Shown piece after piece: positions 15,752-36,880 of a stretch of 36,880 bases of DNA. The number at the start of each line of letters is the position of its first letter. The first letter of the stretch is position 1. The position numbers and the translations under genes were made by a program. Below the pieces are notes generated by a model, which saw only the letters and a list, made by a program, of their open reading frames with translations, did no database searches and had not been told where the DNA came from. Origin of the DNA: a virus; IMG/VR virus record IMGVR_UViG_3300025769_000343, positions 1-36,880 of that record; one strand, given 5' to 3'.

Positions 15752-15812
15752 TATTTATATATATATTATATATATTATATATATATATTAATATTATATA
15801 TATATTATATTA
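15752..15812. repeat. AT-rich tract, second copy of the 37-base repeat
   Basis: Bases 15776-15812 are identical to 2495-2531, in the same orientation. It lies between the resolvase stop (15810-15812, inside the repeat) and the primase start. It may be a promoter region for the primase or a DNA-unwinding element. Confidence 0.7.
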
Positions 15813-20292: not shown

Positions 20293-20304
20293 GTTCAATT
20301 GAAC
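20293..20304. repeat. Dispersed palindrome site 9 (GTTCAATTGAAC)
   Basis: Fills the gap between the convergent stops of the AlpA-like gene (ends 20292) and the giant gene (its TAG begins at 20304 on plus), sharing one base with the latter. A weak bidirectional terminator role is possible. Confidence 0.85.
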
Positions 20305-23300
20305 TATCTGTAATCTTTCATGATCTCATTGCCACGAGCATAAAGCATTTGTTTCTTTTCATCTAACCTGTCTAGGATCAATTGCTTTTGTGCGTCTGGC
20401 ATATTTACATTATCACGCACAGCGTTTTGTTGTCGTGATATTTTTTTGATCGCATTGTTTATAGCTCTAACGCGAGGTATTAATGTAAACTCTTCTGCGT
20501 ATTTTTCTCTAGCTCTTATAAGCCTGTCTCTATCCCCTGCATCTTGTGCTGCTTTTATCTCTGCCGCAACGCGGAGAACCTTGTCTCTTTTCTCTACAAA
20601 GATACCAATGTTTTCTCTGTCAGATACAGTGCCGTAAACCTTACGAACAAAAGGAACTTCTCTTGCTAGATCTTGAGAAAGACCTTCAGCATAGGCTGTG
20701 GTAGGAACGTCCACGAATGTTCTCTTTGCAAACCTTCCAATACCACCAGTTAAAAAATCAAACCAGTAATCCATAATCTCTGGATTCCAGTCTACGAAAC
20801 CAGAGATCTCGCTTGTTCCCCCTGTTAAAGAGTTTAAGTTTTCTGCAACCCATTTAGCCGATGGGCTGACGTTATTAAAATATCTTTGACTATCAGGAGA
20901 GTCATCGCCAGGATACGCCTGCTTATATACTGGAACACCTGCGTAATTTTCATTTCTCATGATCTCTACAAAAGGATCAAATGCAGTTGGCACAGCAAAG
21001 TTATATAGATTTTCTGTTCCACCTATTGGGTTGAGTGCATCCACCGCAGTCATCACCATACTAAGGCCGCCCTCTGACGCAGAGTATTCACCCCTCATAG
21101 TTCTGCTCAATGCTCGACCTGCATTGACCGCTGCGTTTAATCCATAGGGCATGGGTATTGCTAGGTAATCCCGACCTGCACCAAGATCACCTAATGGCAA
21201 GACCATATTATGTTCTAGAATATAATCTGGTATCTTATCGTAAATTAATATGCCATCTTCATCCTCTTCGGAAACAAGAGAGTTCACAAAGTCTTGGAGT
21301 GCGCCCATTCCTATGAGACCAATCCATATGGCTTGTACTTTTTTAGATCTTAGTAACGCATTGAAAAGTGCAAATGAACCTTGGATAGATGCGTTGTAAA
21401 ATAGATACCAAGAGTTCATGAACGTCTTTAGTTCTCCACCCTTACCAAAGTTTACCGTTACATTCCTAGCCGCTTGAGCTGCTCGCGCCCCTGAGAAACC
21501 CTGCTTCTTTAAATTGTGGTATGTGGTAACACGGATAGCATTCTCGATTACGGTGTTATAGTTCTCTAGAAAATTTAATATTGAACCTGCGCCCTTGCCG
21601 ACAAAGCTGTTCTTTACTTTATTAAACTTACCTCGAATACCATCCTCTTGTATATCTCCTAGTATCTTATTAATGTTCTCAACTTGATCAGCAATACTTG
21701 TCATGGGGTTTGCAGAGTTCTGACCGCCGTCACGAACAAAGTCTCTATAGATCTGAGACCATTCACTGCTCTCATCTCCATTTACAATGGCACGTTTAAT
21801 TCCTACGAATGCTTTTCTGTAGTCCTTAGCCATAGCTCCGACCATGCCTTTAGCATCGAACTGTTGGACATTCACACCTGCTGTTTGCAAGTCACGAACC
21901 AAGTTAGTTATCATAAACTCTGGGTTGTAAGATGTGTTTATGTTTGACAGGTATCTATTTAATTTGCCCATCGCACGATTGATTGTAGCGAGAGTACTAG
22001 ATCCAGTACCGTCTGAACCTTTCAGTGCTCTACCTAATCTCTTGTCTGCTAACTCAACATAAACATCTTTGCCGTTTACCTTTGCCACAAATATATTATC
22101 ACTATCTGCTGCAAACCTATCTACAATTTCAACTACATTCCCAGAAGAACTCAATGCTCTGGTTGTCGGTACACTATCAAGGATACGTCCATACCCACGA
22201 GTTTCGTTTGGTTTGCTTTCCAGTAAGCCAATGAAAGCCTGACCTACTTTGTTTCTTTCACCCCTGATAACTGCGTTTTGATTTTGATCTAACACAGTTG
22301 CAAGTATGTCGGTTGCATAATCATATCTACCAAGAGCACGTCTATCTTCTCTTCCCCTAACACCAAAAGGACTTCCGCTTCGTGGCCTCACAAAACTCAT
22401 GTCATTATCTGTTGGGTCTTCTTTGCCACGCAGAGGAACGTAGTTGTTAAAGTTTCTATCTTGCCGTAAATCTTCAGGGATTAACCCGTAATCTGCGCGG
22501 GAATCATTCGTGTTTCTTATTATATCTCTTATTCCAGATTGCATTCTTTGTAATTTTAAAGCGTTATCTGGATCAAGAGTTGCAACCCAAGCGAGTATGG
22601 CGTCAGCCTCTGCATCAGACATTCCAGAACCTGAGTCATTGCTTGGGTCTCTTGTTCTTATAAATGCATTTCTTTCTTTGGCATGAGTGGCATAAATAAC
22701 TGCTTCACCCACGGCTTGTTTTTTACTTCCATAAGATGACAAGGCTTGCTTTACAAATCCATTTCCAGTCTCAGATGCCGCATCAGATAAACCCTCAAGC
22801 CTATCAATACTATCTTGAGATATATTTAATTGATCTATGGCATCAACTGGAGCAGCATACAGATCTTGTCTTGCCCTTAATTCTTCTGGAACTTTGCCGT
22901 GATAAAGTTCTTCTGTTAGATAAGCGTCAAAAGCATCTGGTATTTCTACGTTATTTTCTTGAAGCTCCTGATACATACGACCTACAGAAATGAAGTCATC
23001 TTGAAATTGATTTATTATTTTATCCGCTATGTCTTGAGATTTACTCTGCGGAATAAAATATCCTAATTTTCTTGCTATAAAGTCAGAAGCTTTGGCGTAG
23101 CTTAGATCATATTTCTTTTCTTCTATCTGAACAGGAAGGGAACTAAGCATTGTAGACTGTCTGTATGAATGTGTATTAGCTACAGTCTTACGAGCTTTCT
23201 TTTCCAATATAGGGAAGAATGTTTTTACATAATAAAAATTTGGCTGAAGAGTTGATACTTGCTTGCCTCTTGTTGAAACATCACTGCCTCTCTCTAACAC

Positions 23301-26300
23301 AAGTCTAAGAGGTGGGCTTCCGTTAGTAATGTTCTTGCGCCACTCAAGTACAAGCTTGTTTTGATTTTGATATGAGATTACATCTTCGCCATCTTGAAAG
23401 TCTTGTCTTCTCCATCTATCCAGTAAATCTCTTATAGCTTCTTCAACCCTGCCGTATTTAGAGTTCATGAAAAGATCTTTGTCATGGTTTCTTTGCTGTA
23501 TGTGAACTAAGCCATGACCATCTTGGATGCCGTTAGCATGATTGTTTTGAAGACCTGTTGGAAGAACAACAAGACGCTCTGTTCTACCCTCAAGTATCTT
23601 ACCGTAAACAGGGCTAGGGGTTTGACCTCTGTCAGATTTTTTTACTGGAACTCTTTCGAGCATGTAGCTTTTTCTGTAGTCCTCAGCGGTTGGCTCAACC
23701 TCTGGATCAAAGACAGCGAACCTAGAGGGATATCTTTGTGGTGGTAATTGAGGATTTGTTTCTACTGAGTTAAGCTCTGCTCTTTCCTCTGGGGTTATCT
23801 GCCCTTGAACTGATTGAGAGTAATCTTCTAATTCTAGTTCTCTTGGCGAGAAGAAGTTTCGTTCTCCTGTTGTGTCTTGTATTGTATCAATCTCTCTGCC
23901 AATTTCTGAATCTCTTTCGAGTTCAAGTTTGACACCACTGAGCCGTCCTCGCTCTGCCTTGGGGAGTGTGGCTTCGATTTTGCCATCTGAAATACCTTTC
24001 TTTTTTAGAATAGCTATAGCACCGTCAGCATAGTCGTTGTCATCACCACGACCTTTACGGACACCACCTGCTGCAAAAATTCTTTTCTCTGCGTACCACA
24101 TCAATGCTTGGAAATCTGCGTTAGAAATATTCACACCAAGCTGATTACTCTCTCTTAATATTTCACGAGCACGATTAGCGGTTGCTCTCATAGCCGCTCT
24201 GTCTGCCGCACTTCTTGGATCTTCTTGTAGCGACTCGACTAATTTGTTTGCTAAGTTTTTACCTGCTTTTGCTAGGGGAGTTGACTCAGGTCTAGCATCT
24301 TGAGCTATCTTTTTTACTGTCGCAGCATCCTTGCCAGTGATAGTAGCCCCAGAAATATTAAAATCATACTGATCAGACAAATCATTTAGCTTGTCGTTGT
24401 ATGCTTTGTTGTAAAAACTTTTATCCCATGTACTCATTATCTGTGGAGCTAAAAGTTCAATATCACTTTTTTCTAAAGTAGTGACCCCAAGATCATCTAG
24501 AACAGTAGCCAGTAGATCTTGATCCATTTCAGATAACTGTTCTGGATTTGATACTAAGTTCCAAAGAGTGTCCTTGTTTTTCTGAACTAACTCTTCGTTG
24601 TACTGAACTATTGGTTTGCCAGTAATTCTATTTACAAATCGCATCCACCAACGATCCATAGTTAAAGGATCGAAGTTCCCGCGCAAGTTCTGGTAAAAAC
24701 CATTACCGATCTTAGGCCCGATCACATAAGCAACACCAACCATTTGATCTGCTTGTTCTTTGCCATCAATCTTAAATGGTAGATCTTTTACTCTATCAAC
24801 ACCAAAGACTTCGGTCATCAGAGACGCAAGTTCTCCCTTTGGTAATTGAGTAGTAAGCAATTCATTAATTTGATCTGAGTCATATCCTAGATTAGTGAGG
24901 GCGTTCCAGAACTCCCACGCCTTGATCATGGACTGACCTTGCTTGCCAGAAGAAGACAATGGGAACTTTCCGTCTTGGCTGTTCTTCCATGCATCATACT
25001 GACGAGCGGCAAGTAGGTAGTTGTCTATAACTGATAAGCCGTTTGATGTGACGGCAGTGGCATAATCAAACGCATGTTCTGACGCAGAACTATAAAGAGG
25101 ATTGTCTGTGCCATCAGGACGTGTGGGTGAAACCTCTGGATAAACTGGGAACAGGGTTTGCTTTGCAAGCTTGAGCGTTGTGTCATACCAACCAAGGGCA
25201 TCACTGCTTGATAGTAAAGCCGCCTCTGCTTCAGCAGCCATGATACGAGCTACGGATTCACGATCTTCTGCTGAGTTTATGAGATCATATTCAGGAGCGC
25301 CTCTAAACTGTAATAGTTTGTTAGCAAAGCTAACTAATGTTTCTGAACCTTCTTTGCTTCTAAATTTAGGTTCTCCAGTATTAGGATCTAAGTAGTCCAA
25401 GACACTTGCAGCACGTTGCTTTGGTGTAAGTGGAAGAGTTAAACGAGACTGTCTAAATCCCTCTACTCCTCCAGTAAGCTGTTCTCTTTCGAGGGCGTTA
25501 CGTTTATTCCTTGCTTCTTCAAAGCGGCGACCAACCTCTGCAAGGTTTCTTTGGTATCCGATTGCGGCGTCACTTCTGTAAGCACCACTTTGCTTGAGTC
25601 CTTCGATTCCTTCATTTGTTCTAATCTCCTCAAAGTTATTCAAATTAAATATGGCTAGTTGATCCGCCGCTTCAGCTATATACAAAGCCTCTTCTGCGGT
25701 AGGAACAATCAAAGTGTTATCTAAAAAGTATTGCTTTGACTCTCCATCGAACCACCCACCAAGATACACTGGTCTGTTTATTGCCCTAGATATATCCTTA
25801 TTGTCCTCTATATAACCTAATAATACCTCTTCTGGCAAGGTCTCTCCGACAATTATTTCTGCCTGTTTCAATGGTGCAACAACAAACCCACCTGACACAG
25901 GTTCTAACGTGATTGGATCTACAGTAAATCCATCTGGATTGTCTTTGATAAATCCCTGCAAAGATGGCACTGAGGATGAGCGAGGCAGGCGTGATGCTTT
26001 TGCAGGTGTCTCTACTGCATCAGCATCCTTGTCTACTTTAATTGACTCCTCTGGTAGAGGTGCTCTCTCTCTGCTTCCAATCTCACCTAGATTTATATCA
26101 TCGAATATAGTCGCAGCATCTGTGAATCCGTTCTCTAGGTTTCCACCAATGATAGATTTAAAGAAGTTCTTAATTTTATCTAAGATAGTTCTTGGCTTGC
26201 CAGTAATCTTCAAACGGCCTGCATTGTAATCACGAAACATTTCCGCCACAGCTTCTTCGATCTGTATCTCTGGAGACTTATCGGCGTACATCTTCTTTGC

Positions 26301-28454
26301 TCTATCTAGATAGGTGTACTTTCTTAGCTCTGGCTTACCCTTCTTGCTTTTTACATACTTTGCTTTTGCTGCTGCACTTGTAAGAGTTTGCCACTCCTTG
26401 TCTTTTATGACGTTCATATTCTTTAGGGCGTGTGTTGTCTCGTGATCGAGAACCTCACCAACCCTTTCAAAGAGTTGCTTCTCAGATAGCTTAGGATCAT
26501 AGACACCCATAGATAGACTTATCATTCTGTTGGTAGGGTTGTATTCAAAGCTTCCTTCAATACCCTCGCCTTCTTCGTCTCTTACTAACTGTTCCGCACT
26601 TAGCTTAACATCTTTTAATCCGTACTTATTAAGCCTCTTACGAATATCCTTAAATACTTTCTCTTGTTTTTGTGTAAGAGCAGGAGTGTATACAGGTTTG
26701 TTCGATTGAACTTTTTCTTGAACAGAGTCAGCTATCCTTCTTGCTTTGGCTGCTGCTATTTTTGTTTCAAGCTTCTGAGCTTTGTTAAACTCAGGTGTAA
26801 CTTTTGGAACATATGGAAGGTTGCCAAGCCTGTTAAGTGCTGACTGAGATTCGTTGATAACAGTTGAGTACTGTTTGTTTCTTTCGTTAAGCCTATCAAT
26901 CTCATATTGAATAGCTTTCTCACTGGTTCTTCTGCCCTGTAGGTCTCTGCCGTATTGACGTACAGAATCAAGATCAAGCTTCAGGTCTTTAATAATATTG
27001 TTGTTCTTTTCTGTAGCTTCACTAGCTATATCGATCTGTCTTCTGTAAGAAACATCTGGAGTTTTAAGCTGAGGCTGTATGTTGGTTGTTGGCGTAAACC
27101 TTCGACCAACCCTATTAACATATCCACGACCCACTAGTTCATTCATTACATCTGTTACTTGAGGCACAGTAGTTTTGCCTACATCTTTACTAACCTGCTG
27201 TTGAATAGAAGAAAGGTTTAAAGTTTTTTCTCTTGCAGTATCAGATTTAACCTGCTGTAGAATCCTATCGTATTGAGCTTTGGTGAATGTCTTATTCTTA
27301 AACTCTTCATCTGTTGTGACCTCTGCAACTGCAAGAGGATCTACAGGTCTTTGTTCTTTTACAGGAGGCTGCTCCGCAGCTATCGCTTGATCGTTTTGTT
27401 TTTCTGCCTCAGTTGTAAGCTCTTGTGATATTACGCTTGCGTAACCAAGTCTCTCTCTTGTGTCAGTCGTAAGTTCTTTTAGATCAGCTATAAGCTGCTC
27501 GTCTTTTTCTGCCTCTTTCTTTAACCGCTCTTGTTCTTTCTTATCTTTTTCTTTCTGTGCTTCTCTTTCTCTTATAGATTTACTGGTCAGTCTTTTGTTT
27601 GTGGCAATATCTATTGGAGCACCAACAACAGCGGCTGCGCCTCCGCCAAGTAAACCTTCACCTAAAGCTTCTTTAAAGCTAAGATCAAGACCCTTGTCGG
27701 TTAATGCTGTCTCACTTGTCTGCTGAATTAAAGCCTGCAACCCTTCCGTGCCTGCTTCTACAATTGTTCTTCTTAAAAAGCTAGACATGCCTGGAGCTAT
27801 CGCATTTACAGCACCGCTTGCACTTGAACCTGCTATAGATCCAAGCCAGTCATCTGCGTTAGGAACGTCCCTCCCGTTGTTTCTGGCTCTCTCATTTGCA
27901 ATCGGGCCAAGCAACTGAACTGCCTCAAAAAGTGCAGGCGCAGTAAATCCACCGATTAAAGCGCCAGGCGCTCCTCCGATTAAACCCCCACCGATAACAC
28001 CTGCGCCTCTTGCTGCCATAGACCCTACGAACTGACCTGCTTGTTCTGCTAAAGCTCTTGGCATATAACGGAAGTCAAATCCGAACCCATCTGGATTTAA
28101 AAACTTACCTGCTGCGCTCTCGTAGTTTTCTGGCCCTTCAACTAAGTCACTAAAGAAATCACCAGTACCTTCATATCCAAGAGACCTTGCTGTCTCTGCT
28201 ATGTTTTCGAGGGGCTGATCAAGGGCAAACTTAAAAGCACTAGATACAGATCTGTCAGGCTCAGGAGCTTCCTCTCTTGCGAGAGACCTAATACCACCAC
28301 CATATTGTTGCTCAAAGGCTCTTCTAAAAGGGGCTTCTTGTTGTTCTAATATCTGAGATATTCGGCTTGCTTCTTCTGGTGTGGGTGTATCACCTGCTAT
28401 TGTAAAGCTGTATGGCTCACCAGAGAACTGACCTAGTTGCTGAATAACCCCCAA
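20304..28454 (-). CDS. Giant polyvalent protein with zincin-like motif and LPD38-like C-terminus
   Basis: 2716 residues, about a fifth of the window. The N-terminus has a glycine-rich hydrophobic stretch (about residues 149-172) that could cross a membrane. A zincin helix HETTHAL lies at residues 671-677 after EVLD. Near residue 2370 there is a hydrophobic segment (AIWIGLIGMGALQDFV), within a part that resembles the large polyvalent protein domain LPD38 (TFMNSWYLFYNASIQGSFAL, and a final DWNPEIMDYWFDFLTGG). Such proteins are thought to be packaged and injected with phage DNA and to counter host defences. Start is TTG with AAGGAG 7 bases upstream. Palindrome site 10 is inside the gene. Confidence 0.85.
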   Translation of the reverse strand: MGVIQQLGQFSGEPYSFTIAGDTPTPEEASRISQILEQQEAPFRRAFEQQYGGGIRSLAREEAPEPDRSVSSAFKFALDQPLENIAETARSLGYEGTGDFFSDLVEGPENYESAAGKFLNPDGFGFDFRYMPRALAEQAGQFVGSMAARGAGVIGGGLIGGAPGALIGGFTAPALFEAVQLLGPIANERARNNGRDVPNADDWLGSIAGSSASGAVNAIAPGMSSFLRRTIVEAGTEGLQALIQQTSETALTDKGLDLSFKEALGEGLLGGGAAAVVGAPIDIATNKRLTSKSIREREAQKEKDKKEQERLKKEAEKDEQLIADLKELTTDTRERLGYASVISQELTTEAEKQNDQAIAAEQPPVKEQRPVDPLAVAEVTTDEEFKNKTFTKAQYDRILQQVKSDTAREKTLNLSSIQQQVSKDVGKTTVPQVTDVMNELVGRGYVNRVGRRFTPTTNIQPQLKTPDVSYRRQIDIASEATEKNNNIIKDLKLDLDSVRQYGRDLQGRRTSEKAIQYEIDRLNERNKQYSTVINESQSALNRLGNLPYVPKVTPEFNKAQKLETKIAAAKARRIADSVQEKVQSNKPVYTPALTQKQEKVFKDIRKRLNKYGLKDVKLSAEQLVRDEEGEGIEGSFEYNPTNRMISLSMGVYDPKLSEKQLFERVGEVLDHETTHALKNMNVIKDKEWQTLTSAAAKAKYVKSKKGKPELRKYTYLDRAKKMYADKSPEIQIEEAVAEMFRDYNAGRLKITGKPRTILDKIKNFFKSIIGGNLENGFTDAATIFDDINLGEIGSRERAPLPEESIKVDKDADAVETPAKASRLPRSSSVPSLQGFIKDNPDGFTVDPITLEPVSGGFVVAPLKQAEIIVGETLPEEVLLGYIEDNKDISRAINRPVYLGGWFDGESKQYFLDNTLIVPTAEEALYIAEAADQLAIFNLNNFEEIRTNEGIEGLKQSGAYRSDAAIGYQRNLAEVGRRFEEARNKRNALEREQLTGGVEGFRQSRLTLPLTPKQRAASVLDYLDPNTGEPKFRSKEGSETLVSFANKLLQFRGAPEYDLINSAEDRESVARIMAAEAEAALLSSSDALGWYDTTLKLAKQTLFPVYPEVSPTRPDGTDNPLYSSASEHAFDYATAVTSNGLSVIDNYLLAARQYDAWKNSQDGKFPLSSSGKQGQSMIKAWEFWNALTNLGYDSDQINELLTTQLPKGELASLMTEVFGVDRVKDLPFKIDGKEQADQMVGVAYVIGPKIGNGFYQNLRGNFDPLTMDRWWMRFVNRITGKPIVQYNEELVQKNKDTLWNLVSNPEQLSEMDQDLLATVLDDLGVTTLEKSDIELLAPQIMSTWDKSFYNKAYNDKLNDLSDQYDFNISGATITGKDAATVKKIAQDARPESTPLAKAGKNLANKLVESLQEDPRSAADRAAMRATANRAREILRESNQLGVNISNADFQALMWYAEKRIFAAGGVRKGRGDDNDYADGAIAILKKKGISDGKIEATLPKAERGRLSGVKLELERDSEIGREIDTIQDTTGERNFFSPRELELEDYSQSVQGQITPEERAELNSVETNPQLPPQRYPSRFAVFDPEVEPTAEDYRKSYMLERVPVKKSDRGQTPSPVYGKILEGRTERLVVLPTGLQNNHANGIQDGHGLVHIQQRNHDKDLFMNSKYGRVEEAIRDLLDRWRRQDFQDGEDVISYQNQNKLVLEWRKNITNGSPPLRLVLERGSDVSTRGKQVSTLQPNFYYVKTFFPILEKKARKTVANTHSYRQSTMLSSLPVQIEEKKYDLSYAKASDFIARKLGYFIPQSKSQDIADKIINQFQDDFISVGRMYQELQENNVEIPDAFDAYLTEELYHGKVPEELRARQDLYAAPVDAIDQLNISQDSIDRLEGLSDAASETGNGFVKQALSSYGSKKQAVGEAVIYATHAKERNAFIRTRDPSNDSGSGMSDAEADAILAWVATLDPDNALKLQRMQSGIRDIIRNTNDSRADYGLIPEDLRQDRNFNNYVPLRGKEDPTDNDMSFVRPRSGSPFGVRGREDRRALGRYDYATDILATVLDQNQNAVIRGERNKVGQAFIGLLESKPNETRGYGRILDSVPTTRALSSSGNVVEIVDRFAADSDNIFVAKVNGKDVYVELADKRLGRALKGSDGTGSSTLATINRAMGKLNRYLSNINTSYNPEFMITNLVRDLQTAGVNVQQFDAKGMVGAMAKDYRKAFVGIKRAIVNGDESSEWSQIYRDFVRDGGQNSANPMTSIADQVENINKILGDIQEDGIRGKFNKVKNSFVGKGAGSILNFLENYNTVIENAIRVTTYHNLKKQGFSGARAAQAARNVTVNFGKGGELKTFMNSWYLFYNASIQGSFALFNALLRSKKVQAIWIGLIGMGALQDFVNSLVSEEDEDGILIYDKIPDYILEHNMVLPLGDLGAGRDYLAIPMPYGLNAAVNAGRALSRTMRGEYSASEGGLSMVMTAVDALNPIGGTENLYNFAVPTAFDPFVEIMRNENYAGVPVYKQAYPGDDSPDSQRYFNNVSPSAKWVAENLNSLTGGTSEISGFVDWNPEIMDYWFDFLTGGIGRFAKRTFVDVPTTAYAEGLSQDLAREVPFVRKVYGTVSDRENIGIFVEKRDKVLRVAAEIKAAQDAGDRDRLIRAREKYAEEFTLIPRVRAINNAIKKISRQQNAVRDNVNMPDAQKQLILDRLDEKKQMLYARGNEIMKDYR
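26700..26711. repeat. Dispersed palindrome site 10 (GTTCGATTGAAC)
   Basis: Inside the giant gene. Same core as site 7. Followed by TTTTTC. Confidence 0.8.
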
Positions 28455-28468
28455 TAGTCATCTCCTTG

Positions 28469-30688
28469 CTATGCAGAAACTGCTGTGCCTAAGTCTAGAC
28501 CACTTTGAGTTTGAGTTCCACCAGTAACATCAAAAGAATTGCCTGCTTGCTGAACGCCACCACCAAGACCTAATGATTTTCTTATACGACTTAATCGCAA
28601 TTCTGTTCTAAAAATTTCTTGCTGTATTCTTAGTCTTTCTCGTTCTTTAGTATCCTCAGTCATCATTGGGTATTTAGTTGCATCCTCAAGATCAAGTAAT
28701 TGTTTTTGAAGTCCGTCTCTAGAATCACGAAGGTCATCTAACAAACTGACCATTGTTCCAGGAGTCATCCCACTTGTAGTGCTTTCTTGATCAAGCACGT
28801 CTAGCTTATACTGCATGTTCATCAAATCTAAGATGTCATCATCGTATTGTTGTCTAGCTTCACTAAGAGATCTAAGACCCATGAGACCTGCTTCACCTAT
28901 AGCACCTGCTAATGTTGGGTTGTCTGATGCCATAAGCGCCATGCCAGTCTGTGCAAGTGCTAACCACTTGTCGGACTCTAAGCTCTTCTCTCTTTCGTCA
29001 AGCATTCTCTGTATTCTTGATCGTAAAGGATCGCTGTATCCAGTTCCAGAATCACCGCCTGTTGCAGAAGCTGTCGCTGTTTTAACAACCTTGTTGCCAA
29101 GAGGTGATGTTGATGTGTCTTGAGTATCATTACGAGCAAACTCTGTTAAGTTAGTAGATAATGCCTCACCGCCTGCTTCTCCACCGCCCAACGAAATGTT
29201 ATTCAATGCGCTTGGTGATGTATTATCTGCTGACGGTGCATCACCTGCTATTTGTGGTGCTGTGTCTGGAGCAGATCCGTCAGGCAGCATAGAAGAATAT
29301 TTATCAATAGTGTCATCTATTGCGCCACCTAGTATTTCTCCACCAGAAACAATAGCATCTCCTAATTGTGACCCAATACTATTTGGATCAGGATTTTGTG
29401 AACCCATGTCTTCTATGTTTTGTTTTATTCTATCAAGATCAAATATATCCGCTAAACTAATATTGGAATTAGCGTCACCAATGCCACCAAACATTCCTCC
29501 ATCTGGTATTGGATCTACTTCGTCACTTGTAAATAGTGGAGTTTGATCTGGCTGTTCGAGGCTACCCTCTCTATTCATTTCTGAGATCATATTTGTCATG
29601 TAATCATCCGCAGCCTGAGCCTGAGCCTGAGCTTGAGCAACACGATCAGCAGCTTCTTGAGCAGTTTCACCTGCATTTAAATCAGATGCCGCGTCAGCCA
29701 CTTGTGGATATTCTAATAGGGGCGATTGAAAATAATCATCAAATTCTGGCGTGATTACTTCACTGATCTGAGATGGCATTGTTCCTACTGGTGACATATC
29801 ACCACTAAAGCCGCCCACTATACTAGATGGCACTGCTTGAGTGTCTATATTAGGAGCAGACATCTTTCTTGCTTGTATGATTGACTCAGGCAGAAAACCA
29901 ACTGCACCTGCAAGAGGCTCTGAAAAGCCGCCATCTGGATCTAAAAGCGGATCGTTAATATATTTCTGAGCCTGTAATGATGAACTACCATCCTCTGGCG
30001 CACTAGCTCTAAGCCTAGATAAAGATTTGGCTCTGTCTTCTAGTTCTCTAGCTTCCTGACCTTGATCTATCTTTGTCTGGTTTGCCATCGCCTGAAGCGA
30101 AGGAATCGGGTTAAACTTCTCTAAAAAACTAGGCTCTCTTTCTAATCCTTCTAGTCCAGTTTGCTCTGGCTCAGTGGGCATAATCCCCGAATTGTTTAAA
30201 TAGTAAAGAGCTACTCGCTCTAATGCGGCAGGATTATCTTTATACTTTGCATACTGATCAGGTCTTTGAAATCTTAAAAGCTCAATGGCATCCATAGGGT
30301 TTCGATCAAGACTGTATGTGCCAAGAGGCCCACCATTAGCCATACTAACAATGCCACCTTCAGCCATCCTCTGCGGCATACGAGTAGGCTCTCTTTGCAC
30401 TGCCATGTCTGCACCTGTATTTTGTGCAATTGAACTATTTGGAGCCATGTTCCTTGCGATTGCAGTCAAGCCCTCTTGTGGTGCGCCTGCTGCGGTCATC
30501 ACTTCTTCTGCAACTGTAGGCATATTAGCAGCTTCTTGACGCTTGTAATCCTCACGCATTCTCTTGCGTCTTGTCAGCTCACTGAGAACTAGAAACTGCG
30601 GCATGTTACCTGATGGAGACTGCATCTCCTTCATTAACACACGATCAGGAAAGTCTTTAAGGTTGTCTTGAAGCTCTATTATATTCAT
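28469..30688 (-). CDS. Virion-associated protein with AEGGI motif
   Basis: 739 residues. N-terminus reads MNIIELQDNLKDFPDRVLMK then SGNMPQFLVLSELTRRKRMR, which I recall from marine phage structural proteins. RMAEGGIVSMANGG (about residues 107-120) is a glycine motif of the same kind as in the 421-residue protein at 32147. The middle is acidic, Ala/Gln/Asp-rich and probably disordered; the C-terminal 200 residues are helical (SLESDKWLALAQTGMALMAS, then QQYDDDILDLMNMQYKLDVL). Likely an internal or ejected virion protein. The start overlaps the previous gene's stop (GATGA). Confidence 0.65.
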   Translation of the reverse strand: MNIIELQDNLKDFPDRVLMKEMQSPSGNMPQFLVLSELTRRKRMREDYKRQEAANMPTVAEEVMTAAGAPQEGLTAIARNMAPNSSIAQNTGADMAVQREPTRMPQRMAEGGIVSMANGGPLGTYSLDRNPMDAIELLRFQRPDQYAKYKDNPAALERVALYYLNNSGIMPTEPEQTGLEGLEREPSFLEKFNPIPSLQAMANQTKIDQGQEARELEDRAKSLSRLRASAPEDGSSSLQAQKYINDPLLDPDGGFSEPLAGAVGFLPESIIQARKMSAPNIDTQAVPSSIVGGFSGDMSPVGTMPSQISEVITPEFDDYFQSPLLEYPQVADAASDLNAGETAQEAADRVAQAQAQAQAADDYMTNMISEMNREGSLEQPDQTPLFTSDEVDPIPDGGMFGGIGDANSNISLADIFDLDRIKQNIEDMGSQNPDPNSIGSQLGDAIVSGGEILGGAIDDTIDKYSSMLPDGSAPDTAPQIAGDAPSADNTSPSALNNISLGGGEAGGEALSTNLTEFARNDTQDTSTSPLGNKVVKTATASATGGDSGTGYSDPLRSRIQRMLDEREKSLESDKWLALAQTGMALMASDNPTLAGAIGEAGLMGLRSLSEARQQYDDDILDLMNMQYKLDVLDQESTTSGMTPGTMVSLLDDLRDSRDGLQKQLLDLEDATKYPMMTEDTKERERLRIQQEIFRTELRLSRIRKSLGLGGGVQQAGNSFDVTGGTQTQSGLDLGTAVSA
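30424..30435. repeat. Dispersed palindrome site 11 (GTGCAATTGAAC)
   Basis: Inside the 739-residue protein gene; it is the exact reverse complement of site 2. Flanked by TATTTT and TATTTGG. Confidence 0.65.
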
Positions 30689-31731
30689 CCTGTTAAACCT
30701 TTATATAGACTCAACGCTGATATGCCCATGCCAAGTGCATCTTTAACTGGATTAACACGCTGCATTGTTTGTGTTAATTCATTCTGACCTGCGGGCAGAC
30801 CTCTCAATATACCTGCTATACGTTCATATTGAGTCTGTGGGTACTCTCTCTGACGAACAAAATCTTCGTATGTCTGGTCAAGTCGAGCCTGATCTTCAGC
30901 CCTAATATCACGTCCAAGAGTATCAAGTAACTGTGCGCCTTGTATATCTGCCTGACGTTGACGCTCACCTAATGTAGCTAAACCTGCGCCCATATTAGCA
31001 AACTGTTGACCCATGCCACCTAGCTGCTGCGCTGCACCTAGTGCTGCTTGTTCACCTGCAAGTCTTTGACCTATACCAAACTGCCTATCTGCACGATCAG
31101 CTTCAAACTGACGAGCTGCCTGTTCAAAGGCTTGTTGCTGTCCTGTAGCCTGTATCTCTCCAAGCTGTCGTTGTAAATTTTCTTGTGCCAGAGCATCGAC
31201 AACCCCTCTGCGAGAACCGCCAAATGCACCTGCGCTTACAGCTTCCGCATCTCTTCCTGCTTGAGATCTATCAAAGTCTCTTCTAGCCTGTTGCTTCTGA
31301 ACATCCACAACATTTTGCATATATGGAGACATATATTGACTAACAGCACCACCACTAAAAGTGGTAGGATTGTATTGGCCTGCGGCTCTAAGCCTACCTA
31401 CCGACTGATCTGTATATCCAATGCCACGACCTGAAGCAGCCATTCCTCGCCTGCCTGCCTGCATAGCTTCTGGCATACCTGCGATACCCTGTTGAGCAAT
31501 CCCTCGCGTCATGGCACGAGATGCACCTATATCACCATACATAGATGATTCAGCTATTCTTTCTCCAGGATAAGGCGTGTATCTAGACTGTCCAGTATAT
31601 GGATCAAAGGGCAGCATTGCATCTTCAGCGCCCTGAAGCATTCTACGATAGTACGGATCTGAAAACTCAGGCATACTCACTGTTCGTGTGGTAGTATCCG
31701 TAGGTATATTTTGACCGCCGCCTTTGCCCAT
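30685..31731 (-). CDS. Virion-associated protein, Gln/Ala/Gly-rich helical
   Basis: 348 residues. Recognised segments: SQYMSPYMQNVVDVQKQQAR then RDFDRSQAGRDAEAVSAGAF and GGSRRGV, typical of a marine phage structural family, and long Q/A/R-rich helices (QQAFEQAARQFEADRADRQF). No hydrophobic membrane segment. Likely a component of the internal core or DNA-ejection apparatus, next to the 739-residue and giant proteins. GGAG lies 7 bases before the ATG. Confidence 0.65.
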   Translation of the reverse strand: MGKGGGQNIPTDTTTRTVSMPEFSDPYYRRMLQGAEDAMLPFDPYTGQSRYTPYPGERIAESSMYGDIGASRAMTRGIAQQGIAGMPEAMQAGRRGMAASGRGIGYTDQSVGRLRAAGQYNPTTFSGGAVSQYMSPYMQNVVDVQKQQARRDFDRSQAGRDAEAVSAGAFGGSRRGVVDALAQENLQRQLGEIQATGQQQAFEQAARQFEADRADRQFGIGQRLAGEQAALGAAQQLGGMGQQFANMGAGLATLGERQRQADIQGAQLLDTLGRDIRAEDQARLDQTYEDFVRQREYPQTQYERIAGILRGLPAGQNELTQTMQRVNPVKDALGMGISALSLYKGLTG

Positions 31732-31732
31732 T

Positions 31733-32146
31733 TTATAACTCCATTCGGTAAGCTATGTATTCAGGATAAAATCCGTATTTTTTCAAAGCTCTACCCCAAC
31801 CTTTTCTTCCATAGCCCTCTAGATGACTACATCCTAACTCATTTCCGTAACGCTTCATAGTGTCAATCAACTGATCTTCCCACTCTTTCATCTGCGTTCC
31901 GCCTACCCAATCTAATGCCAGTGCTCTACGTCTAGGATATTGTATTAGTCTTGTGGTAAATGCAGCTATTATCTTATCATCTTCATTCATCACAACCCAA
32001 AGAGCATACATGCCTTCATAAACCCCAGTTAATATATCAATCACTTCTGATTTATCTTTGACTGTATCTACTGCTCTTTTTAATATCTCATCAACGTCCT
32101 TCCATACACTGCCAATTGCCTCTTGAGGCACTAAGCTAACTTTCAA
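31733..32146 (-). CDS. GNAT-like protein within the virion gene block
   Basis: 137 residues from TTG at 32146 with GGTGG five bases upstream. Strand-helix order fits a small GNAT: MYALWVVMNEDDKIIAAFTT, RALALDWVGGTQMKEWEDQL, then SHLEGYGRKGWGRALKKYGF. The last block (G-GRKGW-RALKK-GF) resembles motif B of phage GNATs. The acetyl-CoA loop is not clear. Third GNAT-like gene of the window. Directly follows the 421-residue gene. Confidence 0.6.
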   Translation of the reverse strand: MKVSLVPQEAIGSVWKDVDEILKRAVDTVKDKSEVIDILTGVYEGMYALWVVMNEDDKIIAAFTTRLIQYPRRRALALDWVGGTQMKEWEDQLIDTMKRYGNELGCSHLEGYGRKGWGRALKKYGFYPEYIAYRMEL

Positions 32147-33412
32147 TTATCCCACCATTTGTTCAAGTTTCTCAGGAGCATCCTCTTCAGCACGGTTAAT
32201 CATATCAAGGAAGCCACCACCATATGCTTTCTCCAGAGCATCAGTAGTATTCTTCCTCAGCACAAACTCCCCATCAGACAGGAGAACGTCTTGCTCTCCC
32301 TCAAGTGTTGCAGGAACCATGTCATCAACTCCAGAACCATCTCCTGGGCCTCTTACCATTCCTTTATCACCCTCTGCAAAACGAGCTACAGTATCATCTA
32401 ACTCACCCGACTGCACTCGCCCGACAAGATCGCGTAATGCGTCCTCGCCGTACTTCTGAACAAACATAGCTAAAGCTATTTCTGGTTGATCAGACATTTC
32501 TTTGATTGCTTTTATGGCCTCGACAATAACATCTTTTTCATTCATGCCACTGTCTTCCATCATCTCATCTACTTCTGCTTCTCCACCTTCAGCAAATCCT
32601 AAGACTCCTCTAGCCCCCTCTACGATAGCATCCATTGGAACTTGCGGCATAGATCTAGATAAGTTTCCAATAAACTCCATAGCCTTATCTAACGGAACCT
32701 CTTTACTTGAACTGCCTCCATCACCTAAAGATGCAATGCCCCCCTCTGCATAGGTGTATGGATACTTAGGTGTACTACCATCTGCTCTAGGTCTTCTTCG
32801 GTACTGAAAATATAGACCTTCACCTGGGCTTCCCCCGTAAGGATTGGGGTTATAACTTCTTACCATTGGGTTTGGCATAGGTGGTCTTGTTTCTTTGTCC
32901 TCGTCATCGCCATCTTTTTTTGCTGCACGATTCTCAATCATCTGCATATCTGCCATAGATTGACCAAGCATAGCAGGCATAAAAGCTTGCTGCCCTGCCG
33001 TGAATGCACCACCCTTAGTGCCAGTACCAAACGGCATTGCTGCTGACGCAGTGTCTGCACCCAGAACTTTAGTCGCTAAATCAGATGCGCCACCACTAAC
33101 AACAGAAGTTGCTGACGGACTTGGTGCTGTAAAACTCTGTAGTAAACTTGGCTTTGCGACAGGCGCTCCTTGAGCTGCTGATGCTGCTGCTCCACTTGTA
33201 GATCCAGACAGACCACCCAGTATTTTGCCGCCAAGGAAAGAGGTCATACCTGTTTGTATGCCTTTACCTATGTCACCTGTCTGAACAAATGATCCTAATC
33301 CTGCTCCTATTCCTGCTAATGCAGGCACTGACATCGCCCCAAGGGTAGCCCCAAGCGCACCTGTACCTGCTAATGCAGGTAGACCAACGCTAAATAGTAG
33401 AGGAAGAACCAT
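32147..33412 (-). CDS. Virion or membrane-associated protein with AEGG motifs
   Basis: 421 residues. The first 70 are glycine/alanine-rich and hydrophobic (ALAGTGALGATLGAMSVPAL), suggesting insertion into a membrane. YAEGGIASLGDGG lies near residue 202 and FAEGGEAEVDE follows. The C-terminus has VRGPGDGSGVDDMVPATLEG then EQDVLLSDGEFVL, a phage structural motif (G-GDG--D-----L--GE-VL). Likely a tail or ejection protein. GGAG lies 6 bases before the ATG, and palindrome site 12 is 14 bases upstream. Confidence 0.6.
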   Translation of the reverse strand: MVLPLLFSVGLPALAGTGALGATLGAMSVPALAGIGAGLGSFVQTGDIGKGIQTGMTSFLGGKILGGLSGSTSGAAASAAQGAPVAKPSLLQSFTAPSPSATSVVSGGASDLATKVLGADTASAAMPFGTGTKGGAFTAGQQAFMPAMLGQSMADMQMIENRAAKKDGDDEDKETRPPMPNPMVRSYNPNPYGGSPGEGLYFQYRRRPRADGSTPKYPYTYAEGGIASLGDGGSSSKEVPLDKAMEFIGNLSRSMPQVPMDAIVEGARGVLGFAEGGEAEVDEMMEDSGMNEKDVIVEAIKAIKEMSDQPEIALAMFVQKYGEDALRDLVGRVQSGELDDTVARFAEGDKGMVRGPGDGSGVDDMVPATLEGEQDVLLSDGEFVLRKNTTDALEKAYGGGFLDMINRAEEDAPEKLEQMVG

Positions 33413-33465: not shown

Positions 33466-34074
33466 TTATGTTAACCATTCATATATCTTTTTAGTCTCTT
33501 CTTTGCGGTGCTTTAATCCGTTGTATCCACCGTTAATACGTTTTGTTATGCGTTTGATCGTGTCATCATTGACACCTTCATCACAAATTTCCCATAAATT
33601 ATTTCTCTTAAAGAACCAAATGGCACTCTCCATCGGGTACTTTGTAGCCACAAGATCAGGATCTTTCATAATATCTGGCAGGTTCATATCATTTGCAAAC
33701 ATAGCGTAATTTTCTTTGAACGTGCATTGCAAAAATCCACGACCACGCCATAGATATCCCTGTCCTTCATTGCCGTAACGGTGTCCATAAACTCGATCAG
33801 CTAATGCCTGTGGGTTGCGAGCACAGCTTTCGGCTTCGCCCTCTGTTTTAAAGTACTTACCAAAAACTCTAAGGATAGCTTCTTTAGAATAGTTTAGATT
33901 TTCTTCAACATACCTAAACGTACCGCTCTCATGCACAAGCTGCCCAAGAAAATGAGCACCTCTTTCTGGGTTTAGTACATAATGGTTGCATATCTTCTTT
34001 GCGGTATTAGGGCCAAAAGCACCATCAGGTGTGGCTCCTATCTTTTCTTGTAATGCTTTTAATGGTTCACTCAT
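33466..34074 (-). CDS. GH19 endolysin (chitinase-like lysozyme)
   Basis: 202 residues. N-terminal short peptidoglycan-binding-like start (LKALQEKIGATPDGAFGPNT), then HESG with the catalytic glutamate (E49), a second acidic pair (E57/E58) in YVEENLNYS, and YLWRGRGFLQCTFKENY (107-123), which matches the Q-T-x-x-x-N-Y substrate loop of GH19. It cleaves the peptidoglycan sugar backbone for lysis. It follows the SNase-like gene with an 8-base overlap and the membrane proteins upstream, forming the lysis cassette. AAGGA precedes the ATG. Confidence 0.9.
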   Translation of the reverse strand: MSEPLKALQEKIGATPDGAFGPNTAKKICNHYVLNPERGAHFLGQLVHESGTFRYVEENLNYSKEAILRVFGKYFKTEGEAESCARNPQALADRVYGHRYGNEGQGYLWRGRGFLQCTFKENYAMFANDMNLPDIMKDPDLVATKYPMESAIWFFKRNNLWEICDEGVNDDTIKRITKRINGGYNGLKHRKEETKKIYEWLT

Positions 34075-34468
34075 CTGGAGCTTTCCTTCTATCTCTCAAG
34101 GTCTGCAAGTCCTTTTCTTTCTTGCCGCCATCGTACTCCCAAGCATAACCTTGCTCTATCATCACTTCGTTTATAGAATATTTTGATTCTTGATCTTTAT
34201 AAAACCAACCAAGCATTCTACCATACTTACCTTCTTTTTCTGTCCTGACTATCAGCTTATCAGCGCCCTCAAGCATACCTGTAAGGTGATCTTTTGCTTC
34301 AAGACCCATAGCTTTTTCTTCTAAGTCTCTTGTTCTGCTTTCTGGAGTGTCTATTCCTGCGAGCCTTACCCGTTCCTTCTTCGTTAAATCAAAGCCAAGA
34401 TCGATGATCACGTCTACCGTATCACCATCTACAACCCTATCTACTGAAGAAACAAAGTAAGTATACAT
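34067..34468 (-). CDS. Staphylococcal nuclease-like (thermonuclease) protein
   Basis: 133 residues. VVDGDTVDV (D14, D16), RVRLAGIDTPESR (R35, D40, T41, E43) and KYGRMLG (R84) match the metal and catalytic residues of SNase. No signal peptide is visible, so it is probably cytoplasmic or released at lysis. It sits between the membrane proteins and the endolysin. It may degrade host nucleic acid or clear DNA at lysis; that is inference. Confidence 0.88.
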   Translation of the reverse strand: MYTYFVSSVDRVVDGDTVDVIIDLGFDLTKKERVRLAGIDTPESRTRDLEEKAMGLEAKDHLTGMLEGADKLIVRTEKEGKYGRMLGWFYKDQESKYSINEVMIEQGYAWEYDGGKKEKDLQTLRDRRKAPDE

Positions 34469-34734
34469 TACTCTACAATCTCCTTCTTACCACAGACACG
34501 CTCATATACCATGTCAGACGTATAGCTTTCAGCCCACTTATTTTCTGTGAAAGTACAGAAGTGCCACAAGTCATTTACGTCATCGCTAATAACTTCGATA
34601 ACATCCTGCTGTGCAGACACCGTTCCCTGTAAATGTTCGATGTCGTGAACCAATCCACTTATGTACCAGACTAATGCTACCAACTGCACAGCCATAGCAA
34701 AAACAAGAGCAACAGGTATTTTTAGATCTGCCAT
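34468..34734 (-). CDS. Small membrane protein with coiled-coil tail
   Basis: 88 residues. One membrane segment (IPVALVFAMAVQLVALVWYI) at the N-terminus, then a helix (DIEHLQGTVSAQQDVIEVIS) and two Cys in the tail. Layout is like small accessory lysis proteins or inner-membrane spanins, but no lipobox partner is seen. Overlaps the SNase-like gene by one base. Confidence 0.6.
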   Translation of the reverse strand: MADLKIPVALVFAMAVQLVALVWYISGLVHDIEHLQGTVSAQQDVIEVISDDVNDLWHFCTFTENKWAESYTSDMVYERVCGKKEIVE

Positions 34735-35117
34735 TATTTCCTCTTAAAGAATGCTGTTGCCCCACGTATTCCAAAAGATGCTGAAATTGCTAAACCTAAA
34801 CTGTAAAAATACCAGTCTGGGGCTTTAGAGAGCTGCTCAAAACCACGGTCAACCCAACCTTCTGCACCTGGAATCCAACATAAAATTAATGGAATACTTA
34901 AAATTACCACAAACCATTCGTCTTTCCAACTCGACCTTGAGCCTTGAGCCATGATGCGCTCCCAGTCTGCGACTGACGTTTCTTTTGAGAGCATTATTTT
35001 CGCTTTCGCTTCCGCCTCTGTTAGCTTGAGCTTTGCATTTGCAGCATTTGCATCCGCCTTACCTTTGAGCCAACCGCCTGCAAGTTCGGCTATCGGCCCT
35101 ATCATCTGAGCAATCAT
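34734..35117 (-). CDS. Holin of the 3-TM (GTA_holin_3TM) type
   Basis: 127 residues. Helical leader rich in A and K (ADANAANAKLKLTEAEAKAK), then SWKDEWFVVILSIPLILCWI, then DWYFYSLGLAISASFGIRGA. KDEWF--ILSIP-ILC-IPG and the C-terminal Y--LG-A-SASFGIRG are characteristic of this holin family. It forms inner-membrane holes for endolysin release. GAGGTGG precedes the ATG. Neighbours are two small membrane proteins and the endolysin. Confidence 0.75.
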   Translation of the reverse strand: MIAQMIGPIAELAGGWLKGKADANAANAKLKLTEAEAKAKIMLSKETSVADWERIMAQGSRSSWKDEWFVVILSIPLILCWIPGAEGWVDRGFEQLSKAPDWYFYSLGLAISASFGIRGATAFFKRK

Positions 35118-35332
35118 GACTGACCACCTCTATCGGTTTTTGCTTCTTTGTTCATCCAGATGCCGAAACAACCAGTAAGCGCACCCATACATACAGACAC
35201 CAGACCTGCCTGACCATTTGTTGGATCAGGCAAAGACATGTACCAATGTACACTTTGATACGTTAGAATCGTAACGACTAGCATCATTAATCTTGGAAAG
35301 ATTTTATAGTCATCGATTATTGTAGCAGGCAT
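35114..35332 (-). CDS. Small two-TM membrane protein, holin-like
   Basis: 72 residues: RLMMLVVTILTYQSVHWYMS then GLVSVCMGALTGCFGIWMN. Two membrane segments with a short loop and a charged tail (KEAKTDRGGQS). It may be a second holin, antiholin or pinholin. The stop overlaps the 3-TM holin start by four bases. Confidence 0.6.
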   Translation of the reverse strand: MPATIIDDYKIFPRLMMLVVTILTYQSVHWYMSLPDPTNGQAGLVSVCMGALTGCFGIWMNKEAKTDRGGQS

Positions 35333-36759
35333 TAGAACATTCCACCCATGCCGCCCATAAATGCGCCAAGTCCACCTGCCATTTGTGGCATAGGTCTCCC
35401 TCCTCCTTTGCCACCACCACCGCCACCGCTGACCATGTTTTTAAAATAATCAAACTGATTATAAGGTGAGTTGTAGTTAGGAACATTAAAGTTACTTCCC
35501 ATGTTCATGATTTCAGCACGTTCTCTTGCGCTCATCATTTCTATAGGACGTGCTCTAGTTCTTTGTGATCCACCAAGTATATCATAGTTTCTAGCGGCAT
35601 GCATGAATGCAGGACTCATATTTGGAGTCATAGCATTTCTAGCTGCTGCCATATAATATGGAACTTGACCTGCGCCTTGCTGAGATTCATACCTCATAAG
35701 ATCAGGACTATAACCAAACCCACCTAGTCCACCACCCATTCCTGGGTATTGTGGACGTGGCATTACAGGTGGAAACTCGTCAACTATCTCTGGTGGTAAC
35801 TCTGGCCTAAAATCATCTATCTCTGGCGTAGGTTTTGGTGGTACTACTTGATCATCTCCGCCACCTTTTTTTCTTCTTCTTCTGCGTTTAAAATCATCAA
35901 CTGAAGGGTTTCTTTTTCCTGATGTACCAGATCCTGGGATAACGAACCCTGTTTCGCCCCGCATAAGATTGCGGATACCACTCATAAACTGTTGACCAAG
36001 AGTACTTCTGTTCTTATCTCCTGCAACATTGCGATAGCCTGCACCAAGAAGTGACTGAGCTGCTTGCTGATTAGCTGCTGCGTTCCTAGCTGCTGCTGAT
36101 GCTGATGCCCTCCTTCTTTGAGCAGCCTGACCAGAGGCTTGCCTCTGTTTACGTCTTCTGTCTGCTGCTAATGTTTGCGCTCTTTGTCTTGCTAACTTAG
36201 CTGATGCAGCATTCCTTCTTTCTGACAATGATGCTGTTGAAGTTCTTGCAGGGGTCTGATTTGCAGACATCATACGGTTTGCGGCGGCAGTTCTTGCCCT
36301 TCTTACACTTGGTCTATTTGCATCTCTTCTTCTAGCCGCTGCTGAAGTAGCTCTTGACCTTACTACACTTGGCCTTGCAGCATCTCTTCTTCTGGCTGCT
36401 GCGGAAGTACCACCAGTTCTTGAGCCTGTTCTTGCTGCTGATCTAGAAGAACGTGCTGCTGAAGCTGCCGCTGCCCTTCTTACGCTAGGTCTCGCCGCGT
36501 CTCTTCTTCTAGCCGCCGCTGACGTTCCACCAGTTCTTGAACCAGTACGAGCGCCTGACCTAGATGATCTAGCTGTAGAGGCAGCTCTTGACCTTCTTAC
36601 GCTAGGTCTCGCAGCGTCACGCCTTCTAGCTGCTGCTGATCTTGCTCTTGACCTAGCTCTGGAGGCTGCTCTTGCTCTATTTCTAGCTGCGCTTGACCTA
36701 GCTCTAGTTCTACCTCTACTAGTTGCGCTACTTCTGCTTGTTCTTCTTCCTGGTGGCAT
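35332..36759 (-). CDS. Arg/Ala/Ser-rich repeat protein (protamine-like N-terminus)
   Basis: 475 residues. The first 240 are almost only A, R, S, T, G and P, with no hydrophobic core. A 39-residue unit starting SAAARRRDAARPSV repeats at residues 41, 80 and 119, and again in shorter form at 139. The rest is Pro/Gly-rich with RRRRRKKGGG (near 294) and a glycine-rich end (VSGGGGGGKGGGRPMPQMAG). Such composition is known in histone H1-like and protamine-like DNA-condensing proteins; in this position it may be a virion protein bound to DNA. Function is inference. AGGAG lies 7 bases before the ATG, and the start overlaps the upstream stop (TAATG). Confidence 0.65.
   Translation of the reverse strand: MPPGRRTSRSSATSRGRTRARSSAARNRARAASRARSRARSAAARRRDAARPSVRRSRAASTARSSRSGARTGSRTGGTSAAARRRDAARPSVRRAAAASAARSSRSAARTGSRTGGTSAAARRRDAARPSVVRSRATSAAARRRDANRPSVRRARTAAANRMMSANQTPARTSTASLSERRNAASAKLARQRAQTLAADRRRKQRQASGQAAQRRRASASAAARNAAANQQAAQSLLGAGYRNVAGDKNRSTLGQQFMSGIRNLMRGETGFVIPGSGTSGKRNPSVDDFKRRRRRKKGGGDDQVVPPKPTPEIDDFRPELPPEIVDEFPPVMPRPQYPGMGGGLGGFGYSPDLMRYESQQGAGQVPYYMAAARNAMTPNMSPAFMHAARNYDILGGSQRTRARPIEMMSARERAEIMNMGSNFNVPNYNSPYNQFDYFKNMVSGGGGGGKGGGRPMPQMAGGLGAFMGGMGGMF
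36304..36639 (-). repeat. 117-base tandem repeat encoding 39-residue units
   Basis: Copies start (minus strand) at 36639, 36522, 36405, with a shortened one at 36345. The first two spacings are exactly 117 bases, the third 60. They encode the SAAARRRDA-RPSV units of the repeat protein. Confidence 0.75.
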
Positions 36760-36880
36760 TATGCTTCTCCTGATATAGCTTCTGGGGCAGTTACCGTAAT
36801 AGCCGTGTGCCGTTTAGTTTCGCCTGTCCAAGACTCTCCGCAGTCAGGACACTCTCCATCTGGATATGAGGCAACCTCTT
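36759..36880 (-). CDS. C-terminal end of a CxxC protein (cut by window edge)
   Basis: Only about 39 residues are visible, including GECPDCGESWTGETKRHTAI and an end APEAISGEA, stop TAA overlapping the next start. CPDCG is one half of a zinc-ribbon-like site; the rest lies outside. It is co-directional and coupled with the Arg/Ala-rich gene. Confidence 0.5.
   Translation of the reverse strand, partial: EVASYPDGECPDCGESWTGETKRHTAITVTAPEAISGEA

Follow-up and report, generated by a model that had tools for sequence, protein, structure and literature searches.

Gene organization and sequence features of the 475-aa protein

The window analysed here is the complete IMG/VR record IMGVR_UViG_3300025769_000343, which comprises 36,880 bases. 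Its terminase is 52–59% identical to those of 023Pt_psg01, DSL-LC04, HTVC027P, and HTVC023P, and the virus is therefore a distant relative of the 023Pt_psg01/DSL-LC04/HTVC podovirus group. A gene for a 475-aa protein is located such that the record ends only 121 bases upstream of it, and its start codon overlaps the stop codon of the gene immediately upstream, which encodes a small Cys-containing protein (Table 1). Apart from a 1-base overlap with a neighbour, no overlapping ORF of at least 60 aa is present at the gene in the other frames of the window. The position, strand, and 475-aa length given for this ORF in a preliminary description of the DNA were borne out, and its placement beside lysis and virion genes is upheld by the gene neighbourhood. 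In the relatives described below, the gene is located between a P22 gp10-like tail protein gene and the lysis genes, the upstream order being tail fibre genes and the gp10-like protein, followed by two small proteins. The gp10-like 'stabilization protein' of the relatives matches phrog_3287 ('virion structural protein') and is 40% identical to the one annotated in DSL-LC04.

Table 1. Features of the 475-aa protein gene and neighbouring genes in the window
Feature	Position	Strand	Remarks
Gene of 475-aa protein	35332..36759	-	ATG at 36759
AGGAG ribosome-binding site ahead of the ATG	36767..36771	-	sequence
Cationic N-terminal module, residues 1–245, net +59, RAS type	36025..36759	-	predicted Ala/Arg helices
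39-residue repeat copy 1, residues 42–80	36520..36636	-	
39-residue repeat copy 2, residues 81–119	36403..36519	-	
Partial repeat AAARRRDAARPSV, residues 120–132	36364..36402	-	
Partial repeat AAARRRDANRPSV, residues 140–152	36304..36342	-	
Poly-R/K patch KRRRRRKK, residues 291–298	35866..35889	-	
Conserved family core, residues 354–420	35500..35700	-	ESQQGAGQVPYYMAAARN...SPAF...NYDILGG.QR...RP.EMMS..ER
Peptide ESQQGAGQVPYYMAAAR			part of the conserved C-terminal core
Gly/Met/Phe-rich C-terminus with GKG motif, residues 446–475	35335..35424	-	
72-aa small membrane protein	35114..35332	-	phrog_10198
127-aa holin-like protein	34734..35117	-	phrog_2524, a PHROG without function; holin by eye
88-aa protein (p88), N-terminal membrane helix	34468..34734	-	Rz-like by eye
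SNase-family nuclease	34067..34468	-	
Endolysin, GH19-like	33466..34074	-	phrog_181
421-aa protein (p421)	32147..33412	-	weakly similar to DSL-LC04 'tail tape measure protein'; co-segregates with N-type
137-aa protein, acetyltransferase-like by eye	31733..32146	-	only phrog_25629, unknown function; co-segregates
348-aa protein (p348)	30685..31731	-	matches phrog_4287 'DNA ejection protein'; co-segregates
739-aa protein	28469..30688	-	
2716-aa giant protein with LPD38 domain	20304..28454	-	

The protein has a pI of 12.0 and a net charge of +67, contains no cysteine, and shows no signal or membrane segment. The previously noted Arg/Ala/Ser-rich half, poly-R/K patch, and Gly-rich end are all present: residues 1–245 contain 69 Ala, 63 Arg, 37 Ser, and 16 Thr (28% Ala, 26% Arg, and 15% Ser), and residues 291–475 contain 31 Gly. 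The best net charge over 200 residues (+52) ranks first among 104 long frames (the window plus four records from three related isolated phages). In the AlphaFold model, the N-terminal half forms long Ala/Arg helices with block pLDDT values of up to ~90, a result to be read with caution because AlphaFold readily gives helices for Ala/Arg-rich sequences. The hydrophobic moment of these predicted helices is no higher than that of shuffled sequences, i.e. they are not amphipathic.

The 39-residue repeat of the preliminary description was recovered independently by Tandem Repeats Finder (117-bp period, 2.6 copies, 75% matches, at 36338–36639). Between the two complete copies, 6 differences fall at first, 2 at second, and 21 at third codon positions, corresponding to a dS of 1.24 and a dN of 0.10 (dN/dS ~0.08; Fisher p = 4e-8). 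The same excess of synonymous differences is present among the repeat copies of a second phage, L023. Between orthologous copies of the window phage and L023, dS is 0.24 and dN is 0.012, and the residues specific to each copy are identical in the two phages. Purifying selection acts strongly on the repeat copies at the protein level. As most of their differences are synonymous, the repeat is an old one that has been retained as protein, and a recent DNA expansion as its origin is ruled out by the dN/dS ratio. Taken with the charge ranking, this selection indicates that the charged repeat is beyond chance.

Conserved C-terminal core and exchange of N-terminal modules

A search of metagenomes for relatives, proposed earlier, was run on the viral contigs of IMG/VR; the scans yielded 13 and later 38 relative loci, from which 27 non-redundant complete proteins were taken as the comparison set. 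A C-terminal core of ~65 residues is common to all 38 loci, and a gp10-like tail protein is encoded shortly upstream of the gene in every locus that includes the upstream region. The core consensus in the 27 proteins is ESQQGAGQVPYYMAAARN...SPAF...NYD.LGG.QR...RP.EMMS..ER, with a few substitutions allowed, together with the GKG motif. Its invariant residues are encoded by several synonymous codons, which indicates that the constraint acts on the protein and rules out a DNA signal as the cause of the conservation. AlphaFold gave no fold for the C-terminal half (mean pLDDT 50), and the core appears in this model as a disordered chain bearing conserved motifs, which would be expected of a docking tail. 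In one relative (L051, 5647–6576), a GQQYGSPYGQQYG tandem repeat is inserted between MAAARN and SPAF in the otherwise invariant core.

The remainder of the protein is far from constant. Net charge ranges from −4 to +76 across the family, which excludes the basic repeat as a family-wide property; it was found in six variants, including that of the window. Strong charge is missing in most relatives, a few of which have none, so that the family as a whole cannot have DNA condensation as its central function. Among relatives with either kind of N-terminus, some have the poly-R/K patch and others do not. Clustering separated the N-termini into about three types, namely RAS, PDYG, and a broad third type. 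The RAS type includes the window, L023 (=L006), L024 (=L002), L025 (=L007/L008), L026 (=L010/L011), and L028 (=L012), and the PDYG type includes L027 (=L009), L029 (=L003), L030 (=L004), and L031 (=L005). The low-complexity member L025 is placed apart in the clustering, yet contains the same repeat motif. All RAS members have a net charge of +54 to +76, although their repeat units differ.

Close relatives show a clean exchange of the N-terminal module, beginning at the ATG and ending shortly before the core. In the pairs L010/L009, L002/L004, and L010/L003, the DNA upstream to the ATG is 97, 92, and 84% identical, respectively; homology is lost at the ATG and returns ~1.0–1.2 kb further on, just before the core. 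In a tree of the gp10-like proteins, the non-RAS members L030 and L029 are placed within RAS clusters. This break in homology and the gp10 tree indicate that the entire N-terminus is swapped as one cassette. The preliminary description had held that homologues without the basic repeat would mark it as a dispensable low-complexity expansion. Most homologues do lack it, but the dN/dS ratio and the exchange as a unit argue against a neutral expansion.

No known family turned up, in agreement with the initial impression that no standard phage structural protein is of this kind. No relative of the 475-aa protein was identified in Pfam, the PDB, or isolated phages, nor was there a credible PHROG match. 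A Pfam match of the full protein to Glyco_trans_2_3 was below the cut-off, and a match of the Arg-rich part only to phrog_32072 ('tail protein', E 5e-4) was found; both were rejected as compositional, since the C-terminal halves of the 27 family members matched no PHROG. The PDB sequence search gave no match, and two versions of the core, searched against isolated phages, returned chance matches only. No counterpart was detected in 023Pt_psg01, DSL-LC04, or HTVC027P by a profile search, no relative was confirmed in cellular genomes, and no account of a phage protein of this kind came up in literature searches.

Co-segregation of the N-terminal type with neighbouring genes

Identities within the RAS type and between RAS and non-RAS members were compared in a clade of 8–9 genomes. 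RAS–RAS and between-type identities are 93 and 72% for p421, 97 and 83% for the 137-aa protein, and 91 and 79% for p348, with exact permutation values of 1/126, 2/70, and 2/70, respectively. No separation by N-terminal type was observed for the holin (86 and 87%) or gp10 (82 and 79%), and the endolysin follows the type somewhat, more weakly (5/126). L009 is intermediate in this comparison. The pattern is illustrated by L010 and L005, which are of opposite types and share 99% identity in p88 and 98% in the holin but only 68% in p421, and by L002 and L010, which are of the same type and share 64% in gp10 and 78% in the holin, yet 93% in p421. Mantel tests, which covered up to 21 genomes, gave the same picture, including when gp10 was controlled for; the correlations with the N-terminal part are 0.52 (p421), 0.73 (137-aa protein), 0.66 (p348), and 0.13 (holin). 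The C-terminal core also follows the p421, 137-aa, and p348 genes and, across the complete family, gp10. The N-terminal type thus co-segregates with the ejection-type genes in this small sample, in which relatedness and linkage can inflate the association. Within the lysis cassette, the SNase nuclease gene is present in the RAS relatives L002 and L006 and was not detected in the other close relatives.

Possible role of the protein and comparison with known systems

We tentatively favour the reading, to which we give somewhat less than an even chance, that the product resides inside the virion or is ejected from it, and that its constant C-terminal tail serves for docking while its N-terminus is exchangeable and, in this lineage, cationic and DNA-contacting. 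The protein would be one of the internal (ejection) proteins in the virion of a P22-like podovirus, and its core would be a short-linear-motif tail docking onto constant virion partners. The exchangeable N-terminus, represented here by a cationic, helix-forming Ala/Arg repeat, may bind DNA irrespective of sequence, in its packaged state or during entry, and may thereby neutralize charge or shield the incoming DNA. Presence in the virion, docking by the core, and DNA binding by the N-terminal module are what we infer. No homologue was found in isolated phages, most relatives have no strong charge, and the gene also adjoins the holin gene, all of which count against the ejection reading. More specifically, the tail might load swappable N-terminal cargo for injection, including the Arg/Ala/Ser-repeat DNA-binding helix, which would make the protein a reversed analogue of the T4 internal proteins and a rare protamine-like DNA-packing domain in a tailed phage; we regard this version as doubtful.

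Co-segregation with the ejection-type genes favours a virion-internal or ejection role over a pure host-DNA condenser. The earlier interpretation is upheld in part, namely as regards the neighbourhood, the lack of a known family, and a charged region maintained as protein by selection, whereas the DNA condensation or capsid lining that it suggested is conjectural. A host-takeover protein, whose cationic half would coat or compact host nucleic acids (DNA or RNA) in the infected cell, would not need to be present in the virion, and the composition resembles that of known nucleic-acid condensing tails. Such a function is distinctly improbable, given that the gene is surrounded by tail, lysis, and ejection-type genes, that its start codon overlaps the stop of the preceding gene, and that the N-terminal type follows the ejection-type genes. 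A cationic outer-membrane disruptor or holin partner acting in lysis would suit the location directly upstream of the holin/endolysin cassette, a region in which no lipoprotein (o-spanin) partner for the Rz-like 88-aa protein is visible. However, the N-terminal type does not follow the holin, a strongly cationic region is lacking in many relatives whose gene occupies the same position, and no signal or membrane segment was seen. Neither was the amphipathic cationic helix of a disruptin-like lysis protein found; the low hydrophobic moment of the predicted helices makes membrane disruption less likely, and a lysis factor is very improbable overall.

Variation of the N-terminus in length, repeat unit, and charge, the absence of the charged repeat from most relatives, and the unlike repeat units of the RAS members would also suit a dispensable, drifting low-complexity linker, in which case the repeat is functionless and the protein works through its core alone. 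This explanation is improbable: it is already weakened by the purifying selection on the repeat copies, and neither the charge maintained in all RAS members despite their unlike repeat units nor a clean cassette swap, rather than gradual drift, is expected of it. In P22, the tail needle gene follows soon after gp10, and the present gene likewise follows soon after the gp10-like tail gene. A scaffold-, plug-, or needle-like tail or head assembly factor, absent or minor in the mature virion, could use the charge to recruit partners rather than DNA; a disordered core with invariant motifs fits partner binding, and the charge is not conserved across the family. We consider such a factor unlikely, as it leaves the retained charge of the RAS members unexplained by itself and no known needle or scaffold proved similar to the protein in the PHROG and family searches.

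Several known systems resemble parts of this architecture. The T4 internal proteins IPI–IPIII combine a conserved capsid targeting sequence with diverse injected bodies (PMC3012670). They resemble the present family in having a constant part and a strongly diverging remainder; here, one short constant segment is retained and the remainder is exchanged among close relatives. T4 internal proteins are located with the packaged genome, which they touch, and are later injected; the 475-aa protein is a candidate virion component. The constant part of the T4 proteins is N-terminal and removed by the prohead protease, whereas that of the present family is C-terminal and ~65 residues long; family searches revealed no sequence similarity between the two, and an S78 prohead protease was not found in eight related, mostly fragmentary records. 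Ascovirus P64 (64 kDa, pI 12.2) contains Arg/Ser-rich tandem repeats, the number of which varies among orthologs, and condenses genomic DNA (PMC6163548). Both P64 and the 475-aa protein are large and combine a conserved part with basic Arg/Ser-rich tandem repeats at a pI of ~12. P64, however, is encoded by insect viruses, its basic domain is C-terminal, and its DNA condensation was shown by experiment; its vs2C-ad (two-cysteine) motif is absent from the cysteine-free 475-aa protein, and no homology was found or expected. Membership in either group is not claimed, given the missing homology, the location of the constant part opposite to that in T4, and the lack of cysteine for vs2C-ad.

The ejection proteins of T7 and P22 are mosaically conserved, and some of those of T7 bind DNA (PMC8954989). 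P22 gp7, gp16, and gp20 and T7 gp14–16 are helical, and the present gene shares its fate with ejection-type genes, being located among virion/ejection genes and inherited with them in our small sample, whereas its product matches no ejection-protein PHROG or PDB chain. Protamines and histone H1-type tails likewise consist of Arg- or Lys-rich simple sequence with Ala and Ser. The earlier label 'protamine-like' is overstated, as residues 1–245 are only 26% Arg, with Ala the commonest residue, and constitute one module of a larger protein; classical protamines contain about half Arg or more. What is new here is the combination of a selected repeat, an interchangeable module on a conserved tail, and co-segregation with ejection-type genes.

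DNA packing in tailed phages is generally attributed to motor force, so that a condensing protein is hardly needed. If the ejection reading is true, a cationic module that is under selection, exchangeable, and linked to ejection-type genes would be an exception to motor-only packing, and the conserved core would provide a handle for finding injected or head-packed cargo in uncultured phages. 'Simple' Arg-rich phage sequence can be under selection and swapped as a unit.

The 739-aa protein has conserved ends and a divergent middle among the relatives, a mosaic style like that of the 475-aa gene. The 2716-aa protein is probably an injected polyvalent protein; ~900 residues in its C-terminal part resemble Vibrio phage giant proteins as well as giant proteins of Stx-converting phages annotated as LPD5. 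AT-rich tandem repeat tracts are present at 2464–2551 and 15752–15812, near changes of the coding strand.
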